The notes beneath the pieces are model-generated. The model searched no databases. It saw only the letters and a list, made by a program, of their open reading frames with translations, and had not been told where the DNA came from. Source: Levilactobacillus tongjiangensis (lineage in GTDB: Bacteria; Bacillota; Bacilli; Lactobacillales; Lactobacillaceae). From it: DNA of 64,000 bases. Of this stretch, positions 1,414 to 61,103 are shown piece after piece; the stretch's first letter is position 1, and each line of letters starts with the position of its first letter. Location: contig NZ_RHNY01000007.1 of the NCBI RefSeq assembly GCF_003946345.1, positions 1-64,000 of the forward strand. Direction: 5' to 3'. The position numbers were made by a program, and so were the translations under genes.

Positions 1414-1558
1414 GCCAAATTTGGACTGGAACGCTGTGGGAAGGATGGGACAAGCCAAAGTGCGGTCTTGTCCCTCGCTTGAAGCCGCAAAGCACGTCTC
1501 CAAGTCGCCATTTTTAAGAAAATCACTTGAAAATCCCACGGCTGAGTCCAAATTTGGC
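1414..1558 (-). repeat. dispersed structured repeat, copy A
   Basis: Its ends are a perfect 14-bp inverted repeat, GCCAAATTTGGACT at 1414-1427 and its complement at 1545-1558. Inside are a hairpin with arms GGGACAAG/CTTGTCCC (1447-1474) and the core hairpin CTTGAAG..CTCCAAG (1478-1504). Strand is assigned from the core: the GAAGAC-type orientation used for the family reads on the minus strand here. It contains a spurious open frame of 78 codons that I do not regard as a gene. Confidence 0.75.
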
Positions 1559-1659
1559 TCACTCTCGGCTACCCAGTGACGCGCCAATACTACTGAGTAA
1601 CAGTCTCTTCCAGGTCTTTAAACTAGCTTAGTTTCCAAGAACCTGTTTAACCGGAGGAG

Positions 1660-1816
1660 GTCAGAGGTGGAGCCAGCTGTGTCGACGGTGTTAGCTGATT
1701 TTCGGCTTACAGCGTGGGACGTGTTTGAAGACTGGTGGTTTTTCCAGGCTTCAAACCGAGCCGGAGGACCGGTTTCCAGGCCGCAGGCGTTCCCCACAGC
1801 AGGCGGAATCTCTGAC
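1660..1816 (+). repeat. dispersed structured repeat, copy B
   Basis: The ends GTCAGAG (1660-1666) and CTCTGAC (1810-1816) are complementary. The core hairpin TTTGAAG (1724-1730) / CTTCAAA (1749-1755) has the family's A-G mismatch followed by the CTGG/CCAG pairs. It is inverted relative to copy A, about 100 bp away. Similarity to copies F and G is obvious, for example a shared GTCGACGGTGTTAG segment. Confidence 0.8.
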
Positions 1817-1836
1817 AGCCGTAGGTGACTGGTGAG

Positions 1837-1895
1837 ACTAATTTTAAGTCTATAACGCCGTTGGCTTGATAACGGTTTTCAACCTTTCAACCTTT
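1837..1895. repeat. 60-bp repeat, first copy (second at 35465-35532)
   Basis: Starts with ACTAATTTTAAGTC and ends with a CTTTCAACCTTT block. The same ordered blocks, including TTGATAAC and GTTTTC, recur just after the carboxypeptidase gene ending at 35470. Both copies lie at gene 3' ends. Function is unknown; it might act as a terminator for the minus-strand gene ending at 1912. Confidence 0.55.
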
Positions 1896-1911
1896 TGGCA
1901 TCTAACTGAAA

Positions 1912-2355
1912 TCAATTCAGTGGATAGTGCGCTTTAAAGTAAGCCGCCATCGTTTGGAGGTGGTGCTCCAGACTGAGTCGCTTGACCACGCCCAACCCAG
2001 GAAAGTGGTGTTGCGTGTGATAGGCTGCGAGTTCTTGGGCCGCCGGTGTTTGAACATTGGCGGGTTGCTGCGGCAACCACTCAGCCAACTTTTTAACGGC
2101 CTGAAAGAATTTTTCCTTGGGATGCTTGAAGTCTGAGCGGTCGTCAGAAACGAAGCGATGAATGCGGAGCTGTTCACCTGCAAAGTAGGTCAAATGGAGG
2201 GTGACCGCCCGAGCTGGGTAGCCGTGTTCGCTATAGTGGCTGCCGCCAATGGTGTAGTCACTGAATCCTTGATAGTGATTCAAGGTGGCTAGTTCCCAGT
2301 CGTTACTGAAGAAGCCGTCTTCAATGTCGGCGTAGCTGCGGTCGTGTTCCGGCAA
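1912..2355 (-). pseudogene. sce7725-family protein, C-terminal part after in-frame TGA
   Basis: This 147-codon stretch continues the 2356-2826 frame immediately after its TGA stop. It contains the segment DIEDGFFSNDWELA and a YFAGEQLRIHRFVSDD block that I associate with the C-terminal half of sce7725-type (phage beta-protein-like) proteins. The first codon is TTG with no ribosome binding site of its own. It is therefore more likely the severed second half of one gene of about 300 residues than an independent gene. Readthrough or re-initiation at the adjacent TTG is possible but unproven. Confidence 0.6.
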
Positions 2356-2826
2356 TCAGGCGTGATCAAAAAGACTAATGGTTGGCCGCTGTAGGAGTTG
2401 GCGAATCCGCGCTTCTGGTGGGACCAATAGGTAAGTGGCATCGGTTAAAATACCAGCATGATGGGCTGCTAAGAGTTCGTCATACTGCCGACCAATCAGT
2501 AAAGTTTGGTGACCAGCGACCGGGGGACTAGCTACCGTGGTGGGAGTCAAGATATGGCCAACGATGAGATTGGGATTATCGCGCCAAGTTTGCCAGTCGT
2601 AAAGCTTTTGTTGTGTCAGAGCGTAATCACTGACCGTAGGATTTGTGATAACGACCAGCGGCTGATCATGCTCCACGAAGGCGGCCACAGTTTGAGGGAG
2701 GGCCCGGATATCTCGAACGGGCTCAATAATGGGAATGATGTTGTGCGGCAATATCTGTTGTTCAGCAATCTTTTTCAAGGCGAGGAGGTCGTACTGTCGG
2801 CCACGAAAGTAGGGGAAGTACAACAT
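2356..2826 (-). CDS. sce7725-family protein, N-terminal part
   Basis: A 156-residue product beginning MLYFPYFRGRQYDLLAL and containing IIPIIEPVRD, both typical of the N-terminus of sce7725/beta-protein-like proteins. The biochemical role of that family is not established. It ends at TGA (2358-2356), after which the same frame continues with matching C-terminal sequence, so the gene looks interrupted by a nonsense codon. The start ATG shares one base with the TAA of the upstream nuclease-like gene (TAATG), indicating translational coupling in a three-gene operon with the helicase. Confidence 0.65.
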   Translation of the reverse strand: MLYFPYFRGRQYDLLALKKIAEQQILPHNIIPIIEPVRDIRALPQTVAAFVEHDQPLVVITNPTVSDYALTQQKLYDWQTWRDNPNLIVGHILTPTTVASPPVAGHQTLLIGRQYDELLAAHHAGILTDATYLLVPPEARIRQLLQRPTISLFDHA

Positions 2827-3515
2827 TATGAACGCTCCTTTAGTTGGTCTTGTAAGGTGTGAAGCTCTAAGTTCAAAGCATCGACCTCAGTCTGTAGGGC
2901 CGTCACAGCAGTCGATTGTGTATCTTCAATGAACTGCTCGTAAAAGTTAGCCTCGGGATCGTAGATATCATAGTGTTGGTGGCGCTTTTTGAGTTCCTGG
3001 TAGAGACGATCGGTACTGTATTGTTTGAGACCGGTGGCCGTTTGCTTGGCTTTGCCAACTTCACGGGCCTGTGAAGCAATGAACCGGGTAGTTAACTGGC
3101 TAGCCGGTACCTGCAAGTCTTGGTGTCGTGGTGGTCGCATTACAGTAAGATACCCCGGCGCAACGGGAGTCTCAGTTGCGGTGGCCAAAAGTTCCTCGGC
3201 GAACGGTCGGTAAATGAGAACCCCAATGCCCGCAGGAATTTCGTCAGCCACTTCCTGATAGAGGTCGAGTGGCAGGACAAAGTAGTTGTAATGACCGACG
3301 AAGGACAGCTTGGCTTTAGAATGAAAGTCGCTCTTGGTGACCTTGAGTTCATAGCAGCGCCATTCAATGTCGCCACTAGGTAGTTCTTGGTAACTAAGGG
3401 TGTCGACGATGCCTTGATCATCTGGCATGGTGACCTCTTCAACGGCAAAGGCACCGGCTTCTCTACAGTAATAATAGAGGGTTTGTTCCATGGAGAGGGT
3501 CAATTTAGTTTTCAT
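2826..3515 (-). CDS. PD-(D/E)XK nuclease-like protein (MmcB/sce7726-like)
   Basis: A 229-residue protein. Residues about 30-85 hold a restriction-endonuclease-like pattern: an Asp in GIVDTLSY, then YELKVTKSDF (an E-x-K motif), then a HYNYFVLPLD strand, as in MmcB-type and sce7726-type proteins. The C-terminus, about the last 25 residues, is a Leu-heptad coiled coil. Its start overlaps the end of the helicase gene by 11 bp, and its stop overlaps the next start. Nuclease activity is inferred from the motif only. The context suggests it works with the helicase on DNA. Confidence 0.6.
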   Translation of the reverse strand: MKTKLTLSMEQTLYYYCREAGAFAVEEVTMPDDQGIVDTLSYQELPSGDIEWRCYELKVTKSDFHSKAKLSFVGHYNYFVLPLDLYQEVADEIPAGIGVLIYRPFAEELLATATETPVAPGYLTVMRPPRHQDLQVPASQLTTRFIASQAREVGKAKQTATGLKQYSTDRLYQELKKRHQHYDIYDPEANFYEQFIEDTQSTAVTALQTEVDALNLELHTLQDQLKERS

Positions 3516-5874
3516 CGGATACCTCCTGATGCCAAAAATTCTGGATGGCTGTCGTTAATTGTTCCGGTCGATAGAGCCGTTGGAAATGTTGCCAGTGACG
3601 TGGATACAGGTGCGTGTAACGGGGACTAGCAAAGCGTTGATCCATTAATAGGATGACACCCACGTCCTTTGATCCCCGGATCAATCGACCGGCAGCTTGA
3701 AAGACGTTGTTGAGGCCAGGTAACTGATAGGCAAAGGCGAAACCGTGTTGGGATTGCGCATCAAAGTAGTCGCGAATCAAGTCGGTCTCAGGATTGATAC
3801 CAGGGAGCCCGACACTAACGATACCGACGCCAATCAAACGGTCGGCCTTGAGGTCGATACCTTCGGCAAAAATACCACCGAGGAGGGCGAACCCAACTAG
3901 CGTTTGCGCTGGGTTCGATACAAAATGAGCGAGAAAGGCAGTGCGATCCGCTTCCGCCATTTGGGCCTCTTGGATCACAGTTTTGACGTGCGGGTAGGCT
4001 AGCTGAAAGGCCTGACTCACATCGATCAGGTAGCTACGAGAGGGCAGAAAGATGAGGTAGTTGCCTTTCTTTCCGTCGACCATGGTTTTGATTGCCAACA
4101 AAATATTGGCGAGGTTGGCGTTACGTTGCTTGTAGGTTGTTTGAATGTAGGTGGTGACCATAATGGCTTGATGCTGCGGTTCAAAGGGCGAATCTAACCG
4201 ATAGGCCAAACTGTCAGTGTCCCCTCCCAGGACAGTTTGATAGTAGTCCATTGGTGAAAGGGTGGCCGAGAAGAGCACCGCCCCATGACCAAGTGCCAGG
4301 CTATCCGCTAGAAAGTCACTAGGGTCCAGACAGAGTTCTTTCAAGGTGATGTTGCCATCAACAATTTCCAAGCGCATGCGGTAAGTCTCATCAAAATATT
4401 CACCGATTCGCTGATAGCTGATGGCCGCGAAATAGTAGTCCAAGATAGCCTGTGTGAACGGCGTTTGTGGTTGATCGACGAGCCAATCGTGAATCGCTTC
4501 TACCAAGCGGCCAAGGTCGTGGTCGAAGTTTTCGGGTGGTGTGAGGAAGGTACTGTCCGTCTGATTTTCCGCGAGCAGAGGTGCCGCTACGTCGTCAAAG
4601 GTGGCACGCAGGTCGAGGAGGCGGCGGTGCAACTTCTTACTAGATTGGGGCAGGTCACGACTCTGGTTGATCAGGTGGTCGAGTGGTTGGCTACTGATGG
4701 CTGCAGAGTACATTTCACGGGAACGGTTGACCAAGTTGTGGGCTTCATCGATCAGAAAGAAGTTGTCAGGATCCTCGGTAGCAAAGAAACGCTGGAGGTG
4801 GACCTGGGGGTCGAAGAGGTAGTTGTAGTCACCAATAATGACGTCACAAAAAAGGCTGGCATCCAGTTGGAACTCAAATGGGTCCAGGGTGTGCTTGCGC
4901 GCGTATTTTTCGATGACGGGGCGGGTCAGTTGATCATTATTCTGAATAAGATCTAGTAACGCGGGTTTTAACCGATCATAGTAACCCAACATGTATGGAT
5001 TTTCCTCGGGTAGTAAGTCAGCTTCCTCGGGAAATTTAATTTTTTCCTTGGCGGTCAGCGTGATACTTTTTAGCTTGAGTCCTTGTGCGGCCATCATGGT
5101 GATGGCTTCTTCAGCCACTCGGCGTGTACTTTGCTTGGCGGTCAGATAAAAAATTCGTTGGATCAAGCTTTCGCCAATGGCTTTGATGCTGGGGAATAAG
5201 GTTGAAATTGTTTTACCCGTTCCAGTGGGGGCTTCAGCAAAGAGGCGTTTATTGGTTAGAATCGTTTTGTAAACAGCGACGGCTAGCTCACGTTGCCCCG
5301 GTCGATAGTGGTCGAATGGGAAGGTCAACTGATGAATCGTCGGGTCGCGCCGCGCTTGCAGATCCGAGCGAAACTTGAGCCAGGTGACGTACTCAGTGAT
5401 GACATCATCAAAGAATGTTTGGGCATCTGATTTACTAATTGTCTGAGTCTTCTGGGTGGTGGTTTCAGTATTCGTCTGAAAGTAAGTCAGGGTGAGGGTG
5501 ACTGCGTTTAAGTCAGATTCCTTTTCCATCAGCAGGTGCGCGTAGATCTTGACCTGGGCCCAGTAAAGGGTCAGGGTGTTCTCACTCAGCTGGTCAAAGA
5601 CCGTTTCGGAAGTTTTGATTTCTTCAATTTCAGCCGTGTCATCCGTGAGTATCACGCCATCGGCCCGGCCGTGAAGGAGGTATGGATTACCGTTGAGCAT
5701 TAATTCTTGTTCAAGGTAGTACTCTTTTTGATAGTTTTCGTCGCGTTGTTTCTGAAGACGACGGTGAATCTGGGCGCCTAACAGGGCGGTGTTTTGACTA
5801 CCTGAAGTGCTACTCAGGTCGCCCGTGCGTAGGGTGAATTCAACTAATTCACGAACCCCCAATTTATTTGTCAT
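3505..5874 (-). CDS. DinG/Rad3-like superfamily 2 helicase with N-terminal nuclease-like domain
   Basis: A 789-residue protein. Residues 1-180 resemble the RecB/Cas4 nuclease fold: Asp72 in HGRADGV, Glu85-Ile-Lys87, and Gln107xxxTyr111. A Rad3/DinG helicase follows, with Walker A EAPTGTGKT (214-222), DEAH box (376-379), an FSATLSP motif and the C-terminal QAAGRLIRG motif. The four Cys that bind the Fe-S cluster in XPD/DinG relatives are absent: the segment 277-332 reads KIKFPEE..ENPYM..LDPFEF without Cys. I chose ATG 5874 because GGAGGAG precedes it; an upstream ATG at 5919 lacks a site. It is the first gene of the operon with 2826-3515 and 1912-2826. Confidence 0.85.
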   Translation of the reverse strand: MTNKLGVRELVEFTLRTGDLSSTSGSQNTALLGAQIHRRLQKQRDENYQKEYYLEQELMLNGNPYLLHGRADGVILTDDTAEIEEIKTSETVFDQLSENTLTLYWAQVKIYAHLLMEKESDLNAVTLTLTYFQTNTETTTQKTQTISKSDAQTFFDDVITEYVTWLKFRSDLQARRDPTIHQLTFPFDHYRPGQRELAVAVYKTILTNKRLFAEAPTGTGKTISTLFPSIKAIGESLIQRIFYLTAKQSTRRVAEEAITMMAAQGLKLKSITLTAKEKIKFPEEADLLPEENPYMLGYYDRLKPALLDLIQNNDQLTRPVIEKYARKHTLDPFEFQLDASLFCDVIIGDYNYLFDPQVHLQRFFATEDPDNFFLIDEAHNLVNRSREMYSAAISSQPLDHLINQSRDLPQSSKKLHRRLLDLRATFDDVAAPLLAENQTDSTFLTPPENFDHDLGRLVEAIHDWLVDQPQTPFTQAILDYYFAAISYQRIGEYFDETYRMRLEIVDGNITLKELCLDPSDFLADSLALGHGAVLFSATLSPMDYYQTVLGGDTDSLAYRLDSPFEPQHQAIMVTTYIQTTYKQRNANLANILLAIKTMVDGKKGNYLIFLPSRSYLIDVSQAFQLAYPHVKTVIQEAQMAEADRTAFLAHFVSNPAQTLVGFALLGGIFAEGIDLKADRLIGVGIVSVGLPGINPETDLIRDYFDAQSQHGFAFAYQLPGLNNVFQAAGRLIRGSKDVGVILLMDQRFASPRYTHLYPRHWQHFQRLYRPEQLTTAIQNFWHQEVSDEN

Positions 5875-5901
5875 ACCGGCGTCTCCTCCATTTCTGGCAA
5901 T

Positions 5902-5930
5902 ATCATACCACACTTTCAACCTGGTTTGAA
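5902..5930 (-). promoter_or_regulatory. promoter of the helicase operon
   Basis: On the minus strand, TTCAAA (5930-5925) and TATGAT (5907-5902) are 17 bp apart and 28 bp upstream of the chosen ATG. Confidence 0.5.
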
Positions 5931-5976
5931 CGCGTGTTCGCGAAGCGGAAAGATTGTGAAAATGTTATAAAAGGTA

Positions 5977-6005
5977 TTGGCAAGTGTAAAGTAAGCGCTT
6001 ACAAT
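5977..6005 (+). promoter_or_regulatory. promoter overlapped by cre-like box
   Basis: TTGGCA (5977-5982) and TACAAT (6000-6005) have a 17-bp spacer. The palindrome AGTAAGCGCTTACA (5990-6003) overlaps the -10 box and matches the CcpA cre consensus TGWAANCGNTNNCA except at the first base. Catabolite repression of the next gene is an inference. Confidence 0.5.
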
Positions 6006-6024
6006 ATAAATAGAGGTGAGACAA

Positions 6025-6288
6025 ATGAAGACGATAGGATTTCCTCTTTACCAAAGTATCCCAACGACTGAGCAGACCGATAGCTTACAGAGAGCTTGTC
6101 AACACTATCGTGGCACGGCTATTATCAAAATCAATGATGTTGAATTGGACCCCTTGGACCCGGAACTAGGACGTGAATTGGCCCAGTATGAGGGGCAGTT
6201 CGTGCAGATCATTACGGACGGTCCGGATGAGGCCAGTCTTGCGTCAACGATTCATCAGGAACTGGTGGCCAAAAAGTTCTGTTACTGA
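6025..6288 (+). CDS. small conserved protein, faintly HPr-like
   Basis: An 87-residue cytoplasmic protein. I chose ATG 6025 because GAGGTGA (6013-6019) has ideal spacing; a GTG at 6016 overlaps that site. The C-terminal half (GQFVQIITDGPDEASLAST) resembles the strand-helix end of HPr proteins. However, the phosphorylatable His motif and the Ser46 region of HPr are not recognisable, so it is not a functional HPr. It sits behind a cre-like promoter and ahead of another small gene. Function unknown. Confidence 0.6.
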   Translation: MKTIGFPLYQSIPTTEQTDSLQRACQHYRGTAIIKINDVELDPLDPELGRELAQYEGQFVQIITDGPDEASLASTIHQELVAKKFCY

Positions 6289-6350
6289 TTATCTTGACGG
6301 CATTGCGTGATTTCGCTAAGCTCAGAGTAAATATTGAGGAGGCGTTGTAC

Positions 6351-6554
6351 GTGACGCAAGAACAAGTTGAACGGTTATGTCAGATTGCGCCTAAATATGG
6401 ACTTTACTTGGAGCATCAAGGGTCAGTCATTACCAAGGTCGATGAACAAACCACGGACCTGGACACTGCCAAATATATGCCAGATCAGTTTATTGACCTT
6501 CTCTCCCAGATGATTGCAACTAAGATGAAGGCGGATCTCTGGCAATGGCAGTAA
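6351..6554 (+). CDS. small hypothetical protein
   Basis: 67 residues, starting at GTG 6351 after GAGGAGG (6336-6342). The open frame extends upstream to 6294 but without a binding site. It has no membrane segment or Cys motif and is acidic with mixed helix and strand tendency. It is 62 bp downstream of the HPr-like gene and probably cotranscribed, since the terminator comes only at 6623-6661. I do not recognise the family. Confidence 0.55.
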   Translation: MTQEQVERLCQIAPKYGLYLEHQGSVITKVDEQTTDLDTAKYMPDQFIDLLSQMIATKMKADLWQWQ

Positions 6555-6622
6555 ATATGTCAACCAAAGAGTGTGCGTCAGAAGGCGATTAGCTGCCTTT
6601 CAGCGCACGTTTTAGAAATACA

Positions 6623-6661
6623 GCAAAAAAGGTTTGAGACTTTGTCCCAAACCTTTTTTGC
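6623..6661. terminator. bidirectional terminator
   Basis: GCAAAAAAGGTTTG and CAAACCTTTTTTGC are a near-perfect inverted repeat around a GAGACTTTGTC loop, with A- and T-tracts on both sides. It serves the small genes on its left and could also end the minus-strand gene at 6806. The following ACTCTGAACGTATATAG belongs to the recurrent tail motif. The remaining DNA to 6805 shows nothing clear. Confidence 0.8.
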
Positions 6662-6805
6662 ACTCTGAACGTATATAGTCAAAACGTGAGGCAACAGGCA
6701 GTCAACCCCGCTTAACCTCGCTAGACAAACGATTCAAGACCAAGATTATTCGTCTAAGGATGTTAATGCTTATTCACTAACCGCCTCTTGCTTCACTCTC
6801 TTTTG

Positions 6806-7156
6806 CTACGCTTCTTCCCAACGGTCGAAATCTTTAGCGTGACTGTCTAAGTAAGCCAGGGCCTCTTTGGCCAGGGCCTCGCTTGCAGCGGTAAAGTCAT
6901 GTTCAGTATCTTCGCCATCAGCGTCGGCTTCGTCACGAAGGAAGCCAGCAGCCAGGTCAACATACTTGGTTCGTCGACCAACCCCGTTGTCTTTAAATAG
7001 GTCATCTAATCCGGTTAAATCTGTTTTAGCTGCAGCTGACACCTGCTGTGCCAGGTCCTTTTTGGGACCTAACTTGCTAGCAGCGTAATCCATTAAGAAG
7101 TCGTTCATGTCAACGATAATGGCATGACGGGCTGCCCGTTCATTTTTCTTTGCCAC
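6806..7156 (-). CDS. conserved hypothetical protein
   Basis: A 116-residue, acidic, largely helical cytoplasmic protein (MAKKNERAARHAIIVDMNDF...). The start is GTG at 7156 with GAGGTGACC upstream; no earlier start is possible within the frame. There is no signal peptide, transmembrane segment or catalytic motif. It stands alone between a bidirectional terminator and the divergent pst promoter region. Function unknown. Confidence 0.6.
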   Translation of the reverse strand: MAKKNERAARHAIIVDMNDFLMDYAASKLGPKKDLAQQVSAAAKTDLTGLDDLFKDNGVGRRTKYVDLAAGFLRDEADADGEDTEHDFTAASEALAKEALAYLDSHAKDFDRWEEA

Positions 7157-7268
7157 TTTTGGTCACCTCTTAATTTCATTCTAGTCAATTCCGTTATATT
7201 ACGCAATTAATTCCCTGAAATTAAATGATTAATCGGTTATGGGGGTCAAATACCGTGATATTAGAGAA

Positions 7269-19017: not shown

Positions 19018-19193
19018 TACGGCTATGCATTCGGAAGAAGTGAAATAAAAAACTGCTAGCCATTAAGCTAACAGTTCCCACCGCCCTTGCATGATGATTC
19101 TTGTGTGCCGGTTACCAGTAAAAATAGTAAAAATTGAGAATGCATTAATACCGCTGTTTACAAGCTGTATTTTACTTCCTGAAACTCACGCAA

Positions 19194-19266
19194 TGGACCC
19201 TACCGGATTTGAACCGACGACCTCCTGCATGCGAAGCAGGCGCTCTCCCAGCTGAGCTAAGGGCCC
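19194..19266 (-). tRNA. tRNA-Ala (anticodon CGC)
   Basis: It folds as a complete 73-nt cloverleaf: acceptor GGGCCCT/AGGGTCC with the Ala identity pair G3-U70, D-arm with AGCTCAGCTGGGAGAGC, anticodon stem CCTGC/GCAGG around TTCGCAT (anticodon CGC), and T-arm with GGTTCAAATCC. Discriminator A73; the CCA is not encoded. It reads GCG codons. The 5' end is only a few bases after the terminator of the upstream ABC exporter operon. Confidence 0.95.
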
Positions 19267-19267
19267 A

Positions 19268-23193: not shown

Positions 23194-23248
23194 AATGAAA
23201 ACTCTGCCGACGAACTCTTTCATCGGCAAAAAGAGTTTCGTCCTCAAT

Positions 23249-23318
23249 TTGCTTATAGTCCAGAGTTTACGGCTCTGGGTAGAAACTCGCCAACCTTATT
23301 TTGGCATTATATAGGCAA
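23249..23318 (-). promoter_or_regulatory. purine riboswitch, guanine class
   Basis: The minus strand carries TATATAATGCC, GCGAGTTTCTACC, GAGCCGTAAACTC and GGACTATA in the order and spacing of the purine aptamer. The specificity pyrimidine in GGACTATA is C, which pairs with guanine-type ligands rather than adenine. It lies upstream of the xanthine permease. Confidence 0.92.
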
Positions 23319-23385
23319 TCACTTATTTTTTTAATAGAATGTCATTTACCTTACCACGCGCAATTCAAAATAACAACCTGCGGCA

Positions 23386-28060: not shown

Positions 28061-28218
28061 GACCAGAGATGTAGCCAGCTGTGGGGACGCTTCAGCCAAA
28101 GAACGGGCTTCTCGCTCGATTTGAAGCCACGAAGACCCCGTGTCTTCAAAGTCGCCTGTGCTGTAAGCTGGAAGAGCACCAGCAAACACCACTTTCACGG
28201 CTGGCTACATATCTGGCC
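28061..28218 (-). repeat. dispersed structured repeat, copy C
   Basis: The ends GACCAGAGATGTAGCC and GGCTACATATCTGGCC are complementary at 14 of 16 positions. The core hairpin TTTGAAGCCACG / CGTGTCTTCAAA (28120-28150) has the family mismatch. The side hairpin GCTGG/CCAGC is at 28167-28183. It is nearly identical over its inner half to copies H (reversed) and I. Confidence 0.8.
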
Positions 28219-28333: not shown

Positions 28334-28479
28334 GGTCGCCAGATATGGGCTCAGGCGCGTCGTTTTGCTTTGTCAGTAGGCGATTTTCCTACTGGCTTAG
28401 CAGAAGACCAAGCTTGAAGACTCGGTACTTTCGAGGCTTCAAGTTGTGTCCGCACCGCTCCAGCCCATATCTGGCGACC
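28334..28479 (+). repeat. dispersed structured repeat, copy D
   Basis: The ends are a perfect 18-bp inverted repeat, GGTCGCCAGATATGGGCT (28334-28351) and its complement (28462-28479). The core hairpin CTTGAAG (28413-28419) / CTTCAAG (28437-28443) has the A-G mismatch and CTCG/CGAG pairs; the side hairpin CAGTAGG/CCTACTG is at 28374-28395. The same arms occur in the short copy J. Confidence 0.82.
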
Positions 28480-28545
28480 GGTAAGGCGATAGGGGAATAC
28501 TAAGTTGCTTAACCGGCATTTAAAATCGTTCGAACTTTAGTTGAA

Positions 28546-32467: not shown

Positions 32468-32484
32468 TCATTGAATAGCTTTAT

Positions 32485-32560
32485 GGTACGCGTTCCCTTC
32501 GCTGGTACTAACCAGATCAGGTTCAATGGGTTTGTTCTCAGCCGCGATGGCACCCCAGTC
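32485..32560 (-). promoter_or_regulatory. TPP riboswitch (THI box)
   Basis: The minus strand contains GGGGTGCC, GGCTGAGA, ACCCATTGAACCTGATCTGG and TAGTACCAGCGAAGGGAA, the hallmark parts of the TPP aptamer in order. It turns off ykoEDC-tenA when TPP is abundant. Confidence 0.96.
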
Positions 32561-32567
32561 GTATTTG

Positions 32568-32789: not shown

Positions 32790-33959
32790 ATGACAAGTTT
32801 ACGTATTCGGCGGGGCATGGTGGTGCTCCTGGCCGCCGTCACAGTTGGCGGAGTCGTCAGTCAGGAAGTACCTGCTGACGCTGCTAGCTATCAGACGGTT
32901 TCAACCAAGAAAATTAAGAAGACGGCTTACCATAAGAAGAGTAGTAAGGGAGCCATCTTTAACAAGAAGCACACCAAGAAGGTCAGCAACTTAAAGGCCC
33001 ATCCCAACACGACTTGGTATGCCACCAAGCAAGCGACGTTGAAGCACGGCAAGACCAAGGGGATTTACCTGTACGTGAACAACAGTAAGAAGAGCGTCAA
33101 AGGCTGGGTTTGGCACAGCTATTTGAAGAAGGGAAAGGCGCCATTTGTCTTAAAAAAGGCGAAGGCTGCGGTAGCTATGGACGCCAAGACTGGGAAAGTT
33201 GTTTGGTCCAAACATGCCAACACGGCCCGGCCAATTGCATCTGTCTCCAAAATTATGACGCTTTACCTGACCTTGAAGAAGGTCGACGGTAAGAGTAGCA
33301 ACTGGAACAAAAAGATTAAAATCAAGAGTAAAGGTCTTGTTCGGATGAGTCGGACCTCTGCCTACGGTGGCTTTCACTTTAAGCTGAACCACAGCTACAC
33401 GGTCAAGCAACTCTACGACGCGGCCTTCCTGGATTCTTCGAACAACTCCGCGATTGCTTTGGGCCAATGGGTGGCCGGTAGTAATGGCAAGTTCATTAAG
33501 AAGATGAACGCACAGGCCAAGGCTTGGAAGTTGGGTCACGCTCACTTCGTTTCCGCCTCTGGTTTGGAAAATAGTGACCTTCGTCAATTTGGGTATAAAT
33601 ATGGTTCCGCCAATGCCAACAAGGTTTCTGCTAAGGACGTTGCCTTGATGGCCCGCCACTTGATGACGGACTTCCCTCGCGTTCTGAAGGACGGTAAAGT
33701 TGGTTCCAAGCGGGTCAATGGACAACTCTGCTACAACTACAACAATATGTTGAAGGGTCGGAAGTACTACCAAGCTTCACTGAAGGTTGATGGGCTGAAG
33801 ACCGGGTACACCCCATTGGCTGGTTACTGCTTTGTCGGGACTGGTCAGAAATCTGGCAAGCACCGGGTAATTACGGTGGTTCTGCATGATGAAAACGAGT
33901 TCTCTGAAACGCGTTCACTGATGAATCACGTGTATGGCTTCAGTAGCATGGCTAACTAA
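32790..33959 (+). CDS. D-alanyl-D-alanine carboxypeptidase (S11 family), first paralog
   Basis: A 389-residue exported enzyme that trims the terminal D-Ala of peptidoglycan. The signal peptide covers about 1-32. An SH3-like, Lys-rich wall-binding region follows (about 33-120). The penicillin-binding catalytic domain has SxxK as SVSK (Ser151, Lys154), SxN within DSSNNSAIAL, and KTG in DGLKTGYTPL. The next gene encodes an equally long paralog. Basic residues are very abundant. Confidence 0.9.
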   Translation: MTSLRIRRGMVVLLAAVTVGGVVSQEVPADAASYQTVSTKKIKKTAYHKKSSKGAIFNKKHTKKVSNLKAHPNTTWYATKQATLKHGKTKGIYLYVNNSKKSVKGWVWHSYLKKGKAPFVLKKAKAAVAMDAKTGKVVWSKHANTARPIASVSKIMTLYLTLKKVDGKSSNWNKKIKIKSKGLVRMSRTSAYGGFHFKLNHSYTVKQLYDAAFLDSSNNSAIALGQWVAGSNGKFIKKMNAQAKAWKLGHAHFVSASGLENSDLRQFGYKYGSANANKVSAKDVALMARHLMTDFPRVLKDGKVGSKRVNGQLCYNYNNMLKGRKYYQASLKVDGLKTGYTPLAGYCFVGTGQKSGKHRVITVVLHDENEFSETRSLMNHVYGFSSMAN

Positions 33960-34300: not shown

Positions 34301-35470
34301 ATGGGAATGTCTAAGTTTAAAGGGGTCGTTTTGGCCGTGTTGTTCACGGTGACCCTGGGTGGGGCCGTAGCCACGGGGACAACGGCACACGCCGCTACAT
34401 ATACCACGGTTTCCACGACCAACGTGACGAAAGCTGCTTATCACAAGAAGAGTACCGCGGGGGCCATTTATAATAAGGCACACAATCGTCGGATCGCCAC
34501 GATGAAGGGCTATCCGAACACGACTTGGTACGTGACGCAACACGCGACGTTGAAGCACGCAAATTCCAAGGGGATTTACTACTACGTTCAGAACAAGGCT
34601 GGGTCCGTTAAGGGCTGGATCTGGCACGGATACCTGACTAAGGGGAAAGCACCATTTGGCTTGAAGTACTCTAAGAATGCCATCGCCATGGACTATACGA
34701 CGGGGAAGGCCGTTTGGTCAAAGAGTGCTAATACTGCGCGGCCAATTGCTTCCGTCTCAAAGTTAATGACGTTATACCTGGTTCTCCAAAAAGTCGATGG
34801 TAGTTCCAGCAAGTGGAATGAAGTTGTTGATACCAGTAGCAAGGGCTTGATTTCCATGAGTCAAAGTTCGTCGTGTGGCGGGTTCCTGTTCAAGACCGGT
34901 CATAAGTACACGGTTAAGGACCTTTACGACGCAGCACTATTGGATTCGTCAAACAATGCCGCTATCGCACTGGGGCAATGGGTGGCCGGTTCTAACGCGA
35001 AGTTCATTCAACAAATGAACGCGCAAGCTAAGACTTGGAATTTGGATAAGGCCAGCTTTGTATCCGCCTCAGGTTTGGAAAACAGTGATTTAAAGGTCTT
35101 TGGCTACGCGTACGGGAGTGCGAACGCCAACATGGTTTCGGCCAAGGATGTGGCCTTGATTGCGCGCCACTTGATTCAGGACTATCCACGAATCTTGACT
35201 GACGGTTCCGTTGGGTCTAAAACGGTGGATGGCCAATTGACCTACAACTACAACAACCTGTTAAAGGGGCGGAAGTACTATCAGGCTGCCCTTAACGTTG
35301 ATGGGTTGAAGACAGGATACACGCCATTGGCTGGTTACTGTTTCGTTGGGACTGGTCAAAAGACCGGTAAGCACCGGGTCATCACGGTCGTTCTGCACGA
35401 TGAGAACGAGTTCACGGAGACTCGTTCGTTGATGAATCAGGCGTACAGTTACAGCAGCATGTCAGACTAA
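34301..35470 (+). CDS. D-alanyl-D-alanine carboxypeptidase (S11 family), second paralog
   Basis: 389 residues, the same length and order as its neighbour: signal peptide to about residue 31, wall-binding region, then SVSK (Ser151), DSSNNAAIAL and DGLKTGYTPL. The mature regions are closely similar to the first paralog; the SH3-like part and signal differ more. The codons differ even where residues agree, so the duplication is not recent. GAGGA precedes the ATG. Confidence 0.9.
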   Translation: MGMSKFKGVVLAVLFTVTLGGAVATGTTAHAATYTTVSTTNVTKAAYHKKSTAGAIYNKAHNRRIATMKGYPNTTWYVTQHATLKHANSKGIYYYVQNKAGSVKGWIWHGYLTKGKAPFGLKYSKNAIAMDYTTGKAVWSKSANTARPIASVSKLMTLYLVLQKVDGSSSKWNEVVDTSSKGLISMSQSSSCGGFLFKTGHKYTVKDLYDAALLDSSNNAAIALGQWVAGSNAKFIQQMNAQAKTWNLDKASFVSASGLENSDLKVFGYAYGSANANMVSAKDVALIARHLIQDYPRILTDGSVGSKTVDGQLTYNYNNLLKGRKYYQAALNVDGLKTGYTPLAGYCFVGTGQKTGKHRVITVVLHDENEFTETRSLMNQAYSYSSMSD

Positions 35471-35532
35471 TTTTAAGTCGATAATGCTTTACTATTCTTG
35501 GTTTGATAACAGTTTTCGAACTTTCAACCTTT
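35465..35532. repeat. 60-bp repeat, second copy
   Basis: It begins within the stop region of the carboxypeptidase gene. It has GACTAATTTTAAGTC, TTGATAAC, GTTTTC and CTTTCAACCTTT in the same order as at 1837-1895. Confidence 0.55.
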
Positions 35533-35552
35533 AGCTATATATGTTTAGAACG

Positions 35553-42360: not shown

Positions 42361-42532
42361 GGTTGTCAGGGTGGCGGCCTGCTGTGTCGGTGTTACTGGT
42401 CTGGGCGAGCCCAGGTCAGTAACAGGGGACGAGCTTGAAGACCCACATGGGTTTTGGTGGGGCTTCAAGTCGAGCCGGAAGCCCGAACTTTGGCTGAAGG
42501 CGGCCCCACAGCAGGCACCCACCCTGACAACC
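42361..42532 (+). repeat. dispersed structured repeat, copy E
   Basis: The 26-bp arms at 42361-42386 and 42507-42532 pair at about 24 positions. Inside are the hairpin GTTACTG..CTGGG/CCCAG..CAGTAAC and the core CTTGAAG (42434-42440) / CTTCAAG (42463-42469), with the A-G mismatch and CCCAC/GTGGG pairs. Single copy between the secreted-protein and nucleoside-hydrolase terminators. Open frames across it on both strands are products of the repeat. Confidence 0.85.
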
Positions 42533-42615: not shown

Positions 42616-43572
42616 TTAGTTTTGCTTGAACAGGTTCGTCAGGTATTCCATGAAGGTCTTCAGGTAACGATCCTTGTCGACCATGACAGAAACCTTAACG
42701 TTAGTAGGTTCGTTTAACCGGTTATCATCACCGATAGTCCGACCGTAAGTTTCCTTGTTGTAGTTGACCACCATGTTTAAGTCAATCGTGGTAACGAAGC
42801 TAGGATCCAACGCAACCCCAACAGCCAGTGGGTCATGCAAAGCACAGCCACCCAGGTTGTCGTTAACGTCAACGTAGGCTTGGATGTAGTAGTCCACGAT
42901 GTCAGCAAATTTTTCACCGGCAACGGTCCCCAAGTCACGCCATTGTTGTGTTTCCTTCTTAGTCAACAGGGTCCGCAGGGTAACATCCAGGCCAACCATC
43001 GTTGAGTGCAATGGGCTCGTCAAAACAGCGTTAGCAGCTTCGGCATCTTGGTTGATGTTCGCTTCGGCATAAGCGGTAACGTTACCAGGAACGGTTAAAG
43101 CACCACCCATGAAGGTGACGTTGCCAATTTCCGTAGCGATTTCTGGGGCCTTCTTGATGGCAGCAGCCAAGTTGGTCATTGGACCAGTAGGAACTAACGT
43201 CAAGTCTTTGCCGTACTTGTGAACGGCGTCAATCAGGAAGTCCACACCGGATTCCTTTTCAATCGACCGTTGTGGATCTGGTAAGTCGACTTGGCCAATT
43301 CCGTTTTCACCGTGAATGTCTGCACTAACTTGCATCCGATCAAAGTGATCACTGGTTGAGGAATGACTTTCACCCAGATATACAGGGATATCAGTGTGTC
43401 CAAGCAGTTCCAAAATCTTCAAAGAGTTTTGGCCACCGGCTTCGACGAGCACGTTCCCGTAAGAACCGATAATCCCAATCAAATCTACATCAGGAGCACC
43501 CAATGCGTAAGCAATTGCGAGTGAATCATCGATACCAGTATCTAAGTCTAAAATCAGTTTACGTTTTGCCAT
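42616..43572 (-). CDS. inosine/uridine-preferring nucleoside hydrolase
   Basis: 318 residues. The N-terminal calcium-binding motif DLDTGIDDSLA (Asp9, Asp11, Asp15, Asp16) and the late CALHDPLA motif mark the family. It splits ribonucleosides into base and ribose for salvage. Closest in appearance to the pyrimidine-preferring RihA/RihB type. A perfect 18-bp palindrome lies upstream. Confidence 0.9.
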   Translation of the reverse strand: MAKRKLILDLDTGIDDSLAIAYALGAPDVDLIGIIGSYGNVLVEAGGQNSLKILELLGHTDIPVYLGESHSSTSDHFDRMQVSADIHGENGIGQVDLPDPQRSIEKESGVDFLIDAVHKYGKDLTLVPTGPMTNLAAAIKKAPEIATEIGNVTFMGGALTVPGNVTAYAEANINQDAEAANAVLTSPLHSTMVGLDVTLRTLLTKKETQQWRDLGTVAGEKFADIVDYYIQAYVDVNDNLGGCALHDPLAVGVALDPSFVTTIDLNMVVNYNKETYGRTIGDDNRLNEPTNVKVSVMVDKDRYLKTFMEYLTNLFKQN

Positions 43573-50192: not shown

Positions 50193-50235
50193 ACTGTTGT
50201 GAGTTGTGATGTAATTGCCGCCTCCGGCAGCCAGA

Positions 50236-50389
50236 ACTGGGGCTCAGCCGTGGGGACCGGATAAAGCCATAGGGCGGTCTTTATCCTCGGTTTGAAGCCT
50301 CGAAAAACCCACCGAGTCTTCAAACACGTTCCACGCTGTGAGTCCGAAAAAAACGCGAACTAACACCGTCGACACCGCTGAGCTCCAGT
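50236..50389 (-). repeat. dispersed structured repeat, copy F
   Basis: The arms ACTGGGGCTCAGC (50236-50248) and GCTGAGCTCCAGT (50377-50389) pair at 12 of 13. The inner hairpin is GGATAAAG/CTTTATCC. The core is TTTGAAG (50291-50297) / CTTCAAA (50318-50324). It is tandemly followed by copy G with a period of 186 bp. Confidence 0.85.
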
Positions 50390-50420
50390 CATTTACAATA
50401 ATTGCCACCTCCGGCAGCCA

Positions 50421-50576
50421 GGACTAGGGCTCAGCGTGGGGACCGGATAAAGCCAAAGGGCGGTCTTTATCCTCGATTTGAAGCCTCGGAAACCCCACCG
50501 AGTCTTCAAACGCGTCCCACGCTGTAAGTCCGCAAAAACGCGAACTAACACCGTCGACACCGCTGAGCCCCAGTCC
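50421..50576 (-). repeat. dispersed structured repeat, copy G
   Basis: The arms GGACTAGGGCTCAGCG (50421-50436) and CGCTGAGCCCCAGTCC (50561-50576) pair at 15 of 16. The hairpin GGATAAAG/CTTTATCC and core TTTGAAG (50477-50483) / CTTCAAA (50504-50510) match copy F almost exactly. Open frames here are repeat-derived. Confidence 0.85.
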
Positions 50577-50864
50577 AGACTACCTCCGGCTCCAATGGTT
50601 GTGAAGGACGGAGTCAATCTTGTGAGTTTAACTAGCAGTTAGCTTAATGTTACTGAGGTTGGGCGATCGTCCTAGGTATTGATATTGATGATAGTCTGGT
50701 CAGTCAGTCAGTCTGTTACGGTTGTTAGACGAGTATTGAACGGTTGCTCTTAATTAAATAAGAGATAGCAATTGATCAGCTATGGTGCCATGTTTACGTG
50801 AGCATACACCAACCGCCAATTATCATATTTTTCGGTTACATTTAAGACAGTCTAAGCCGGAGGT
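50577..50864. other. intergenic spacer between repeats G and H
   Basis: I see no gene with a ribosome binding site and no further copy of the repeat core in these 290 bp. Confidence 0.4.
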
Positions 50865-51020
50865 GGACAGGGTGGGCCAGCCGTGAAAATAGCGTTAGCT
50901 AGCGTTCCTTGCTAGGTTAGGCTATGGGCGACTTTGAAGACACGGGTTTATCGTGGCTTCAAATCGAGCGAGAAGCCCAGTCTTTGGTTGAAGTGTCCCC
51001 ACAGTGGGCTTACTCTGTCC
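50865..51020 (+). repeat. dispersed structured repeat, copy H
   Basis: The ends GGACAG (50865-50870) and CTGTCC (51015-51020) pair, with further weaker pairing inside. The hairpin GTTAGCTAGC..GCTAGGTTAGGC and core TTTGAAG (50933-50939) / CTTCAAA (50957-50963) with CACG/CGTG pairs are present. It is inverted relative to F and G; its reverse complement is closely similar to copy C. Confidence 0.8.
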
Positions 51021-51053
51021 CCCGGAGCGCGCCAATAGTAAACTGATTTTGAA

Positions 51054-57346: not shown

Positions 57347-57546
57347 ATGTAGTCTGAGTCCTCTCTATGTAATCAATTTCCCGCCGTGCAAGCAGGGTGT
57401 AGTCCATGTTTAATTTTACCATAATAGGAAAAATTGGGGCTGTTTTCAGGTGGATTTAAGAAAAGTTAAGAAACTCTTTAGTTGACTTAAAATTCTCAAC
57501 CGGTAAAGTAGGGAATCGCGAATTCAATTAGAAAGAAGCGAACACC

Positions 57547-57789
57547 ATGTCAAAACACCATCAATCTTATCAAAGTCCGTTCGCAGCAATGTTGACGGAA
57601 CAACGTTTTCCCTTTGCCAGTCAATTGGCAGCTAAGGCCCACCTTGACCCCAGCCAAGTTATGTTCGCTTACTTACAGATCACAGCAAACGTGCCCACGA
57701 CGTTAGCAGCCGTTCCCCGCCAAAAAGAAATTGACCGACGGTTCCAGCAATTTTTGACGGACGCTGCTAAGCCGGTGACTGACGATTAA
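57547..57789 (+). CDS. small hypothetical protein
   Basis: 80 residues with ATG 57547 behind AGAAAGAAG. Neutral to basic, helical, no Cys, no signal. Alone, upstream of the choloylglycine hydrolase by 140 bp. Not recognised. Confidence 0.55.
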   Translation: MSKHHQSYQSPFAAMLTEQRFPFASQLAAKAHLDPSQVMFAYLQITANVPTTLAAVPRQKEIDRRFQQFLTDAAKPVTDD

Positions 57790-57931
57790 CTAGAGGCGAA
57801 ATGGTTGAAGCGGTCCGTTGATTCGCGTAAACTGGATTAACCATTAAAAAGTTACTTAACAAACTAGGCCAGCTGATCAAATAATTGTGAGCTTATCGAA
57901 GTTCGGGTAGCCATGAAGGAGGAAGATACCT

Positions 57932-58909
57932 GTGTGTACCAGCATTTTACAGATTGCGAAGGACGGTAGCCACATTTTGGCGCGAACCATGGACTGGCAC
58001 GCATTGTACGTGCAGCCGCTGTTTGTTCCGCGGGATTATCAGTGGGAGAGTGTGTACGATAATCACGTACACACCAACAAATACGCCATGATTGGTGGCG
58101 GTGGCGCCCACCATCACGAAATTGATGTGTCCGATGGCGTCAACGAGATGGGGTTGAGCGTGCAAAAGTTAACGTTCGCTAATGGCTCCAACTTAGTTGA
58201 TAAACCCACTTACGGCCAAGTTCACTTGGCACCTTACGAATTTTCCTTCTACTTGCTGGGACATTACGCTTCCGTTGCTGACATTGAGGAACACATTGAT
58301 GAAATTCAATTGATGAGCGGCAAATACGCTGTCAATGAGATTGGTGATTCCGAACTCCATTTTGCAGTGGTCGACCGGACGGGCCGGACCGTGGTTATTG
58401 AACCGACCCATTTTCCCATGCGTGTGCGGGAGAATCCGTTAGGCGTGGTGACCAACAGTAAAGACTTTGAGCTTCAACTTGAGCGCCTCGGTCAGTACGT
58501 TAACTATACCGATGACTTTGAAGCCGGGACGTTACCGCTTAACGCGACGCGGGTCTCCACTGGGCGTTTTTCTGGCAAGCCAGTTCCCAGCGGGTCCTTT
58601 ACGCCGGGTGGCCGGTTTGTCCGGGCGGCTTATTATAAAGAACGTGCCGACTTACCAACCGATGAACCAGGAGCAATCGTCAGCGCGTGGCACCTCTTGA
58701 ACAGTGTCACGGTACCGAAGAGTCATCAATACCGGCCAACCTACTCGGTTTATCGAGCGGCAACTTGTTGTGAGTCATTGACGTATTACTTTCAACCATA
58801 CAATCGACTCGGTTTAGTTCAGTTAAAATTGACCCCAGAGATGTTGACTTGGACGGAGCCTAAGTTCTACAAAGTTGCCAATCAACTGACGGTCACACCG
58901 CTCAACTGA
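57932..58909 (+). CDS. choloylglycine hydrolase family protein (bile salt hydrolase / penicillin V acylase)
   Basis: 325 residues; GTG 57932 follows GAAGGAGGA. The N-terminal nucleophile is Cys2, exposed after Met removal. Arg18, Asp21, Asn175 and Arg228 stand at exactly the positions of the family's catalytic residues. The bile-salt Asn at about 82 is not evident (FANGSN, with Asn84), so choosing between bile salt hydrolase and penicillin acylase is not possible. Its stop overlaps the YdcF gene on the other strand by 8 bp. Confidence 0.9.
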   Translation: MCTSILQIAKDGSHILARTMDWHALYVQPLFVPRDYQWESVYDNHVHTNKYAMIGGGGAHHHEIDVSDGVNEMGLSVQKLTFANGSNLVDKPTYGQVHLAPYEFSFYLLGHYASVADIEEHIDEIQLMSGKYAVNEIGDSELHFAVVDRTGRTVVIEPTHFPMRVRENPLGVVTNSKDFELQLERLGQYVNYTDDFEAGTLPLNATRVSTGRFSGKPVPSGSFTPGGRFVRAAYYKERADLPTDEPGAIVSAWHLLNSVTVPKSHQYRPTYSVYRAATCCESLTYYFQPYNRLGLVQLKLTPEMLTWTEPKFYKVANQLTVTPLN

Positions 58910-59894
58910 TCAGTAGGAGCCACAGCACATTAGCAGTCAAGAAACCTACCAACACTCCCCGATGTAAGCGAGGATGCAACATGATGATGGCTAAAAATTC
59001 ACGAGCCCAGGCACCCGGTAAATAAGACCAGCGGACGTGGGCTGGGTAGCCACCAATTCGAAGGCCGAGTTCACTAGCCAGATGTTCTGCACGGAATAAG
59101 TGATAGTTACTGGTGACGATGATGACTTTCCCACCGCCATCGGGTAATTGGGACCATAGCCGCTGACTGTACAAGACATTGGACAGGGTGTTCGTGGCTT
59201 GTTTTTCTTCGATAATGTCCTTGGCATCCCAGCCACGGGCGACTAGATAGGCTGCCATCGCCGTTGACTCGGGACACGTTTCATCAGGACCCTGCCCACC
59301 AGAAACAATCATGGTGGGCTTTTTGGTTTGACGTTGAGCAAACGCTAGTGCCGTATCCAAGCGACTGCCGAGCACCCGGCCAATCTGGTCACCATGCTGG
59401 AGGCCGGCTCCTAAGACGAGCAGGGTATCCGCCCGTTTAGCCCGCCACCAATCAGCGCGCAAGGCGCCCAAGACGCTAGCGGCGAAGAGAATTCCCAGGT
59501 AGGTACTGAAGGCGGGGATGAAGGTTAACCACGGCCAGAATGAGGAGCCAAAGTGGCCGCTGTTTAGGCTGTACCCCCAACCCACTGCAAGAATTACCCA
59601 TAGCCAGATGCCAGCAATTAGACCGTACGTGAGGTGTTCTTGTTTGCGGAAGACCAGGTGTGGGGCATTGAGAATCAAAAGTAGGGTGAAGATTCCCAGA
59701 CCACCGACCAGCGCGATTAATGTCCAGCCGACGTGCGCCAATACCTGTGCCCAGAGATGCTTCGAAAAACTGGCAACGATGATGATCAGCGCGCAACTGA
59801 CCGTGGTGACCACAGCACTGGTTAAGCCGCGGGGTTGCCAAAAGGTAAAGAGCGCGGTGAGACAGACTAGCAAAACGATGGTACTAAGAACCAT
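58902..59894 (-). CDS. YdcF-family membrane protein (DUF218)
   Basis: 330 residues. Four or five N-terminal helices precede the DUF218 domain, which begins DTLLVLGAGLQHGDQIG (about 160) and has VSGGQGPDETCPESTAMA and TSNYHLFRAEHLA; a final helix closes it. The domain is thought to act on envelope or nucleotide-like substrates, but the reaction is not settled. GGGGGTG precedes the ATG. Confidence 0.85.
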   Translation of the reverse strand: MVLSTIVLLVCLTALFTFWQPRGLTSAVVTTVSCALIIIVASFSKHLWAQVLAHVGWTLIALVGGLGIFTLLLILNAPHLVFRKQEHLTYGLIAGIWLWVILAVGWGYSLNSGHFGSSFWPWLTFIPAFSTYLGILFAASVLGALRADWWRAKRADTLLVLGAGLQHGDQIGRVLGSRLDTALAFAQRQTKKPTMIVSGGQGPDETCPESTAMAAYLVARGWDAKDIIEEKQATNTLSNVLYSQRLWSQLPDGGGKVIIVTSNYHLFRAEHLASELGLRIGGYPAHVRWSYLPGAWAREFLAIIMLHPRLHRGVLVGFLTANVLWLLLIS

Positions 59895-60047
59895 TTTGAC
59901 ACCCCCTTAAAGGTTAAGATTTATTGACACTTTCAGATTCTTCTATTTCTGGTGAGAATCTTGTTATAATGAGAAATACTGGCCTGCGTTCGCTGAATGC
60001 AGGGCAGACACAATTAAGTCTATTATAACGGAATTGGAGGGACCAAG

Positions 60048-60683
60048 GTGGCTAAACGGCGAAGAAAACCTAGGAATGCAAGAAAACGACGACCAAGCTC
60101 TGCTAGAGCAACCTGGATTTTTGTCCTGGTCCTGCTGGTCTTGGGTGGTGGCATGTTGATGAAGGACCACATTCAAGCGGTGGTACAGCCACAACCAACC
60201 GCTCATCAAGTGACGGTTAAACCGGTTTCTGGTGAGACGCCAGCGCAACAAGCGTTTATTCAGAAGGTCGCCACGCCGGCCGTAAAGGTTTATCGCAAAA
60301 ATGGCCAGGTCCTGCCCAGCATCGTGATTGCCCAGAGCATTCTGGAGTCGAGTTGGGGAACGTCCAAAATCTTTCAGCAGGCGAATAATCCCTTTGGTAT
60401 CAAGGGAAGTTATCATGGTAAGACCGGGTCGTTCGTGACACACGAGTACGTGAATGGGGAACGGATCAAGATTCACGCTAACTTCCGAATTTATCCCAAT
60501 CTAACGGTTGCCATCCAGGATCACGACAATGTCTTAAAAAGCCGCTATCTACCGCAACCAGCGAAGAATTATCAAGAAGCTTCGCAGAAATTGCAGGCCG
60601 GTGGGTACGCCACTGATCCCGATTACGCGCAAAAGCTCAATAGCTTGATTGTCAGCTATAAATTAAATCAATTTGATAAATGA
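60048..60683 (+). CDS. membrane-anchored glucosaminidase-like peptidoglycan hydrolase
   Basis: 211 residues; GTG 60048 behind GGAGGG. A basic N-terminus and one membrane helix (about 23-40) precede a glucosaminidase/FlgJ-like domain: IAQSILESSWGTS with the catalytic Glu, then NNPFGIKGSY and a late YATDPDYAQKL. It cuts glycan strands. Alone, with a terminator after it. Confidence 0.88.
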   Translation: MAKRRRKPRNARKRRPSSARATWIFVLVLLVLGGGMLMKDHIQAVVQPQPTAHQVTVKPVSGETPAQQAFIQKVATPAVKVYRKNGQVLPSIVIAQSILESSWGTSKIFQQANNPFGIKGSYHGKTGSFVTHEYVNGERIKIHANFRIYPNLTVAIQDHDNVLKSRYLPQPAKNYQEASQKLQAGGYATDPDYAQKLNSLIVSYKLNQFDK

Positions 60684-60715
60684 TGCGGCGTTGTTTGCCG
60701 CTTAGCTTAACTAAG

Positions 60716-60751
60716 AAGGACCTGAGATACGTATGTATCCCAGGTCCTTTT
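60716..60751 (+). terminator. terminator of the glucosaminidase gene
   Basis: AAGGACCTGAGATAC and GTATCCCAGGTCCTT pair with few mismatches around GTAT, and the T-tract follows. It separates the gene from repeat I. Confidence 0.82.
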
Positions 60752-60782
60752 GAACTTTAGTATGGTTTGACGCTCTCCGGAC

Positions 60783-60940
60783 GCCAGGGATTCCGCCAGC
60801 TGTGGGGACGCTTCAGCCAAAAAGCGAGCTTCTCGCTCGATTTGAAGCTACGAAGAACCCGTATCTTCAAATGCGTCCGTGGTGTAAACTGGCAAAAATC
60901 ACCAGTTACCGCCACTTTCACAGCTGACTATATCCCTGGC
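60783..60940 (-). repeat. dispersed structured repeat, copy I
   Basis: The arms GCCAGGGA (60783-60790) / TCCCTGGC (60933-60940) and CAGCTGTG (60797-60804) / CACAGCTG (60919-60926) pair. The core is TTTGAAG (60841-60847) / CTTCAAA (60865-60871) with TACG/CGTA pairs, and the side hairpin is AACTGG/CCAGTT. Very similar to copy C. Confidence 0.82.
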
Positions 60941-61046
60941 CTCCTCCGGCTTCGATTGCGTTTAACACGGTAGCTGCTGAAAATTTTACACGCACTGTTT
61001 TATTTACAAACCAATCGATGGTAGCGGAATACCGTGTAAGCCGAGA

Positions 61047-61103
61047 GGTCGCCAGATATGGGCTCAGGCGCGTCCGCACCGTTCCAGCCCATATCTGGCG
61101 ACC
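61047..61103. repeat. dispersed structured repeat, copy J (internal deletion)
   Basis: The 18-bp arms are identical to those of copy D and perfectly complementary (61047-61064, 61086-61103), but the core is missing. The 57-bp copy is explained by an 89-bp deletion from a D-like unit between two GTC triplets. No other terminator is evident after the minus-strand gene at 61132. Confidence 0.82.

Follow-up and report, generated by a model that had tools for sequence, protein, structure and literature searches.

Among described repeats, the bcr1 repeat of the Bacillus cereus group is about 155 bp long, occurs in many copies and has been proposed to be mobile and structured. REPINs are doublets of repetitive extragenic palindromes (REPs), for which RAYT transposases have been put forward as the mobilising enzymes (PMC3116915); REPs usually lie where the neighbouring genes are convergent or unidirectional (PMC3733652). 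The present analysis concerns ten structured intergenic repeats, copies A to J, in a stretch of 64,000 nucleotides from Levilactobacillus tongjiangensis (assembly GCF_003946345.1, contig NZ_RHNY01000007.1, positions 1 to 64,000; this whole stretch is called the window). The copies belong to a genome-wide non-coding repeat family of Levilactobacillus, which is present in many relatives. It is one family, scattered, with a presence that differs between close species and with multi-copy clusters of facing members; in the stems, paired bases are conserved and show compensatory change. The repeats are probably, if by no great measure, non-autonomous mobile repeats of Lactobacillaceae, similar to REPINs or to miniature inverted-repeat transposable elements (MITEs), in which the single-stranded cloverleaf would be the selected feature.

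Facing cloverleafs in the window and in other genomes

A full copy is a cloverleaf of 160–180 nt, consisting of an outer stem P1 and hairpins P2, P3 and P4. When the core hairpin P3 is read as TTTGAAGAC..GGCTTCAAA, P1 has about 20 bp and ends in GTG/CAC; P2, P3 and P4 (AAGACCG..GGCTT) follow inside it, and then GTCCCCAC. Conservation extends past the arms for about 12 bases before (GTAGCCGGAGG) and about 15 bases after (GCCGGAGGCGGCCATT) and fades beyond (67 copies); this count and those for the arm test, partner kinship, target duplications, terminators, promoters and the GTAG tag refer to chosen sets, not to every copy. The outer ends of pairs carry GCCGGAGGCGGC.

Ten seed sequences went into a covariance model, R1, namely copies B, C, E, F, G, H and I of the window and three sequences from other parts of the genome. 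R1 has 35 consensus pairs, with change on both sides at 17. With filters off, the seed copies scored E values of 1e-43 to 6e-37 by construction, namely B (157-bp class, 1660–1817, plus strand; 1.1e-43), C (28061–28218, minus; 5.6e-43), E (42361–42532, plus; 6e-37), F (50229–50394, minus; 5.7e-41), G (50416–50579, minus; 3.3e-41), H (50866–51022, plus; 2.6e-37) and I (60782–60940, minus; 1.9e-42). An independent test was provided by the three non-seed copies: D (28334–28479, plus; R1 match 28338–28476) gave 2.1e-15, A (140-bp class, 1414–1558, minus; R1 match 1418–1558) gave 1.4e-11 and J (61047–61103, plus) gave 0.096. In spite of its weak score J is counted as real, because it has the outer arms of D and a full-length syntenic copy in the sister genome G010; it is an internal-deletion form of a D-type copy, with the same outer arms and the inner hairpins gone. 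Thus all ten repeats listed in an earlier note on this DNA exist, with coordinates right within a few bases. The common layout described there was recovered by folding as far as the long complementary ends around inner hairpins are concerned, which are stable on both strands; D is without the third hairpin and J without any inner one.

The clusters of the earlier note are real, and a fixed strand order within them had been overlooked. A, C, F, G and I are on the minus strand and B, D, E, H and J on the plus strand, which gives the facing pairs A-B, C-D, G-H and I-J; no partner was detected for E. The same order was found in a sample of 464 kb, composed of 20 regularly spaced 20-kb stretches of the genome (400 kb) and the window. 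Minus-strand copies stood to the left of plus-strand copies in 20 of 20 multi-copy clusters (17 of order "-+", one "--+", two "-++" and none "+-"); a single detected copy was present in 31 of the 51 clusters. Spacers between paired copies measured from about 65 to more than 500 bases. Twenty loci fetched from other genomes yielded 38 matches, of which three mirror-image ones at already counted places were dropped; wherever a locus held more than one copy (13 loci, ten of which are from other genera), minus preceded plus. Two of these ten, L118 and L119, appear to represent one locus sampled in two species. At one locus of the sister genome G028 (L213:2342–2500 and 2621–2778), adjacent copies in the same orientation were seen, and a facing partner was not detected.

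Copy G alone had 47 matches in the 2.72-Mb genome, and R1 had at least 150, the worst E value among those scored being 4e-20. The 464-kb sample gave 89 matches and, after removal of 13 mirror-image matches at already counted places, 76 copies, to which the 400 kb of stretches contributed 67; the density of one per 6 kb, as noted earlier for the window, is therefore typical of the genome, and extrapolation from the sample leads to about 450 copies per genome. The matches were mostly 120–170 bp long, and 75 of the 76 copies were intergenic. The earlier note had proposed a search beyond the window, and the family was indeed found there: besides the places in its own genome, 90 of 301 Lactobacillaceae genomes, representing 13 of the 40 genera, had matches when no more than nine candidates were scored in each. 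In a survey of 58 relatives, 33 of 34 other genomes of the genus contained a match (the exception was G022), and no match was seen in the 23 genomes from other families, which span 17 genera; absences in both surveys are soft, due to stricter filters and few candidates scored. The pattern is present in named Levilactobacillus records and, among the matches listed, also in Lactiplantibacillus, Secundilactobacillus and Companilactobacillus.

Pairing, turnover and ends of the units

The suggestion of the earlier note that the fold is kept and not the sequence was supported by three lines of evidence. In 59 chosen copies, the 5' arms had a mean identity of 41% between copies. A copy's own 3' arm paired with its 5' arm at a mean of -35.9 kcal/mol, compared with -17.0 (sd 0.67) for permuted arms, and was the best of 59 partners in 43 of the 59 cases. 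Since arms with 41% identity continue to pair, selection on fold and not on sequence can be seen here with unusual clarity. In an alignment of the 59 copies, 97.1% of the cells were paired, both sides had changed at 31 of 35 pairs, and covariation (0.541) was far above the shuffled (0.189) and slid (0.04–0.10) backgrounds. The arm test is the stronger evidence, because the alignment was fitted to the model, while the arm test uses mostly unmodelled bases.

Orthologous copies in sister species (23 copy pairs, each counted in both directions) differed at 4.3% of paired bases (247/5738), 12.3% of unpaired bases (357/2911) and 10.6% of alignable flanks (242/2281), the last value being lowered by leaving flanks of less than 70% identity uncounted. 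The set omits C with its truncated counterpart in G010, J, several weaker copies and three mis-assigned G028 pairs (63% identity). The stems contained 26 Watson-Crick changes on both sides and 181 single changes; this small share argues against mere copying from arm to arm and for selection on pairing. If the repeats are mobile, they would have multiplied as facing pairs of cloverleafs, and a trans-acting enzyme could read the folded single strand (single-stranded DNA or RNA) instead of the sequence, as has been proposed for REPINs. Because such an enzyme would read the fold, the arms of active copies would have to remain complementary as their sequence drifts.

Occupancy of the sites varies between sister species. 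Copy E is absent from G028. A single counterpart of F and G is present in G010, and G028 has H alone of this cluster; F looks like a tandem duplicate of G that arose in the own lineage. G010 has lost I and has J at full length; in G028 the two copies are present in decayed form. At 35461–35534 (start approximate) the window and G028 retain only the right end of an A/B-type unit, which is complete in G010. Behind the nucleoside hydrolase gene (42616–43572, minus strand) different cloverleaf units are present in different species, as judged from the orthologs L166 to L195; a match at E ≤ 0.01 was obtained on its 3' side in about 8 of 30 fetched loci. Units were reversed relative to their flanks at three sites, i.e., A/B in G010, C/D in G028 and the own unit C41:84626–85015 in G010. 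Inversion in situ was considered for one of these sites and rejected: the reversed G010 unit is 82% identical to its positional counterparts and 79–81% to paralogous units elsewhere, and its halves have closer single relatives at 91–92%. Exchange with a paralogous copy fits better. Inserted copies might later decay by deletion or be replaced through such exchange. At the C41 site (L205), which corresponds to L214:18700–19130 in a second species, paralogous cloverleaf pairs stand in opposite orientation, and outer flanks similar to CGCCTTACCGG/CCGGTAAGGCG are common to both.

The cluster of A and B is enclosed in a 585-bp unit with terminal inverted repeats, which had escaped the earlier note. 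An alignment of 18 units of the A/B and C/D types gave, for the A/B type, a terminal repeat of 14 bp, CTAAAGGTTGAAAG; with at most one mismatch it had 73 matches, compared with one for the reversed control. In the window a variant of it forms the left end (1313–1326, plus strand), a version with one mismatch the right end (1884–1897, minus), and these are bordered by 8-bp target duplications at 1305–1312 and 1898–1905, as read from the sequence, with 7 of 8 positions identical. A resembling end of the C/D unit is tentatively placed at 28527–28540 (minus). Target duplications of 7–9 bp are clear at L033, L049, L116 and two insertions of G010. One insertion specific to G010 has TTAATGA on both sides, where the empty site in the own genome and in G028 has a single TAATGA. 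The A/B subfamily is thus MITE-like and was inserted with short target duplications.

For the whole family it would be conceivable that the repeats are ordinary MITEs, with a DDE transposase reading the short terminal repeats and the cloverleafs as passive cargo. The termini, the duplications and the dispersed near-identical copies of the A/B class agree with this, as does the unit at L116, which belongs to another genus and is bounded by the same terminal repeat. We consider this explanation unlikely, since facing pairs without A/B terminal repeats exist, such as G-H, and pair equally well, since cargo has no need of compensatory change, and since no matching transposase was found among the families searched. 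The ISL3 and IS256 families had no match in genome G343, which carries an A/B-type unit; around 24 fetched ISL3/IS256 genes only two sequences similar to the terminal repeat were seen, imperfect and unpaired, and in the four genomes checked these families are unsupported as drivers of the terminal repeats. Y1 (RAYT) transposases were rejected as drivers too, because their distribution does not track the repeats: of 24 Levilactobacillus genomes searched with PF01797, seven copy-carrying ones (G002, G005, G006, G012, G016, G017 and G023) had no match, and G022 has PF01797 and no copies. In agreement with the earlier note, no transposase was detected among 16 window proteins scanned, including the ten open reading frames that flank the five clusters; seven of these ten carry ordinary Pfam domains, the other three no Pfam domain.

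Gene setting and the readings weighed

With genes called by a simple longest-open-reading-frame rule, intergenic regions between convergent genes contained a cluster in 18 of 64 cases, those between tandem genes in 29 of 258 and those between divergent genes in 4 of 64. This bias, together with the stable folds on both strands, could point to DNA cruciforms which relieve supercoiling between convergent genes or insulate their transcription, as has been proposed for REP sequences and bacterial interspersed mosaic elements (BIMEs). Pneumococcal repeats and insertion sequence elements have the same convergent bias, however, which is read there as tolerance of insertion (PMC3049150), so that this placement appears usual for mobile repeats; moreover, the 3' side of the nucleoside hydrolase gene is occupied in only some of the genomes. 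A cruciform function is therefore regarded as very improbable. As mobile repeats, the copies would persist chiefly on the downstream side of genes, at the places where an insertion is least harmful.

A transcribed structured RNA, acting as an antisense or 3'-end regulator and read outward from the spacer, would be another possibility. Within 100 nt, an intrinsic terminator of the neighbouring gene is aimed at the 3' end of 25 of 65 copies, as opposed to 4, 2 and 2 of 65 at three control positions, and the conservation of paired bases after insertion would suit an RNA. Orthologous stems contain 77 G-T and 48 A-C mismatches; young copies had 39 and 29 distinct wobble changes, respectively, where the B consensus used does not fold as a cloverleaf. 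This strand asymmetry is suggestive only as a sign of transcription. A larger count of 139 G-T versus 40 A-C was rejected as proof of RNA, since in the P1 control other mismatches are purine-skewed as well (A-G 47 versus C-T 4, A-A 20 versus T-T 6), and wobble counts are no clean test. Sigma-70-like promoters are not in excess before the copies (7 of 64 with at most three mismatches, 9.8 expected; 41 with at most four, 38.4 expected), and copies have been lost or have decayed at several sites in sister species, which makes an RNA function quite improbable. The notion that the copies serve as terminators themselves was discarded, as many neighbours (25 of 65 copies) own ordinary terminators.

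In 21 two-copy units the own partner was the nearest relative for none of 42 copies, which is counted among the evidence for mobile repeats. Several other observations speak against the favoured reading. The lineages of left and right members combine about at random; single cloverleafs may therefore move, or be converted, alone. Target duplications are absent from pairs that lack the terminal repeat, where the longest direct match beyond the ends measured 4.31, as against 4.44 after permutation (29 units), and in other A/B-type units the duplications are degraded. Neither copy G nor an A/B-type unit had a match in plasmids, window positions 1400–1830 had none in phages, and IMG/VR, searched with two patterns, yielded a single matching contig for one of them; horizontal movement is thus not seen. 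No enzyme was found for the repeats among the families searched, which were Y1, ISL3 and IS256 only. Finally, the paired bases remain conserved at orthologous sites after insertion, for which an inserted selfish copy has no need, and the repeats may therefore have a host function.

Integron attC sites and parvovirus terminal repeats are recognised as single-stranded structures. By comparison, it is a doubtful but conceivable proposition that the repeats represent a distinct class of mobile elements of Gram-positive chromosomes, in which both ends would be four-way-junction cloverleafs, read as single-stranded structures by some enzyme, and which would make up about 2–3% of the genome, by extrapolation. 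In any case it becomes testable which enzyme or process recognises so large a single-stranded fold in Lactobacillaceae chromosomes. For practical work, the paired copies may confuse assembly, gene calling and surveys of small RNAs.

The window also contains purine and TPP riboswitch aptamers (23236–23334 and 32476–32567, both on the minus strand), two tandem paralogs of D-alanyl-D-alanine carboxypeptidase genes (32790–33959 and 34301–35470) and a tRNA-Ala gene with anticodon CGC (19193–19267, minus strand).

Comparison with described repeats

The statement of the earlier note that no named family fits held as far as the searches reached. Over the copies in the window none of 4227 Rfam models matched at gathering score; eight loci compared with Rfam at E ≤ 1 gave two tRNAs only, and full-text literature searches, which cover few subscription journals, retrieved no paper describing the repeats. 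The repeats, which have a density of one copy per 6 kb and matches in 13 of the 40 genera sampled from a bacterial family of industrial importance, thus seem to be without a name. The bcr1 repeat is similar in size, copy number and proposed mobility and structure, a likeness by description only. Pneumococcal BOX elements share a structured nature, the convergent bias and a predicted RNA fold (PMC3049150); the facing cloverleaf pairs and the other host family set the present repeats apart, by description and not by sequence.

MITEs such as RUP or Nezha resemble the A/B class in their terminal inverted repeats, short duplications, non-coding nature and many copies; target duplication with an empty site was found in this class only. 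Unlike them, the family includes pairs without terminal repeats, for which, as with G-H, target duplication is wanting, and no partner insertion sequence was found (ISL3, IS256 and Y1 searched). Unlike AT-rich MITEs, the own-genome copies have a G+C content of 48–70%.

An extensive likeness exists to REPINs and BIMEs (PMC3116915, PMC3733652), which likewise consist of inverted doublets that number in the hundreds, lie between genes, mostly where the neighbours are convergent or in tandem, show compensatory changes and have no gene of their own. The inverted doublet was present in 20 of 20 own clusters and in 13 of 13 loci elsewhere, in addition to the clusters with a single detected copy. In contrast to REPs, which are palindromes of 20–40 bp with a GTAG or CGTC tag, the repeats are cloverleafs of 160–180 nt, their arms vary strongly between copies, GTAG adjoins the 5' arm of only 29 of 67 copies, and RAYT transposases of the Y1 type are missing from several carriers and do not track the repeats. 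By analogy, the repeats could perhaps best be regarded as a variant of the interspersed mobile-repeat kind, which would work like a REPIN and differs from it in size, tag and transposase.

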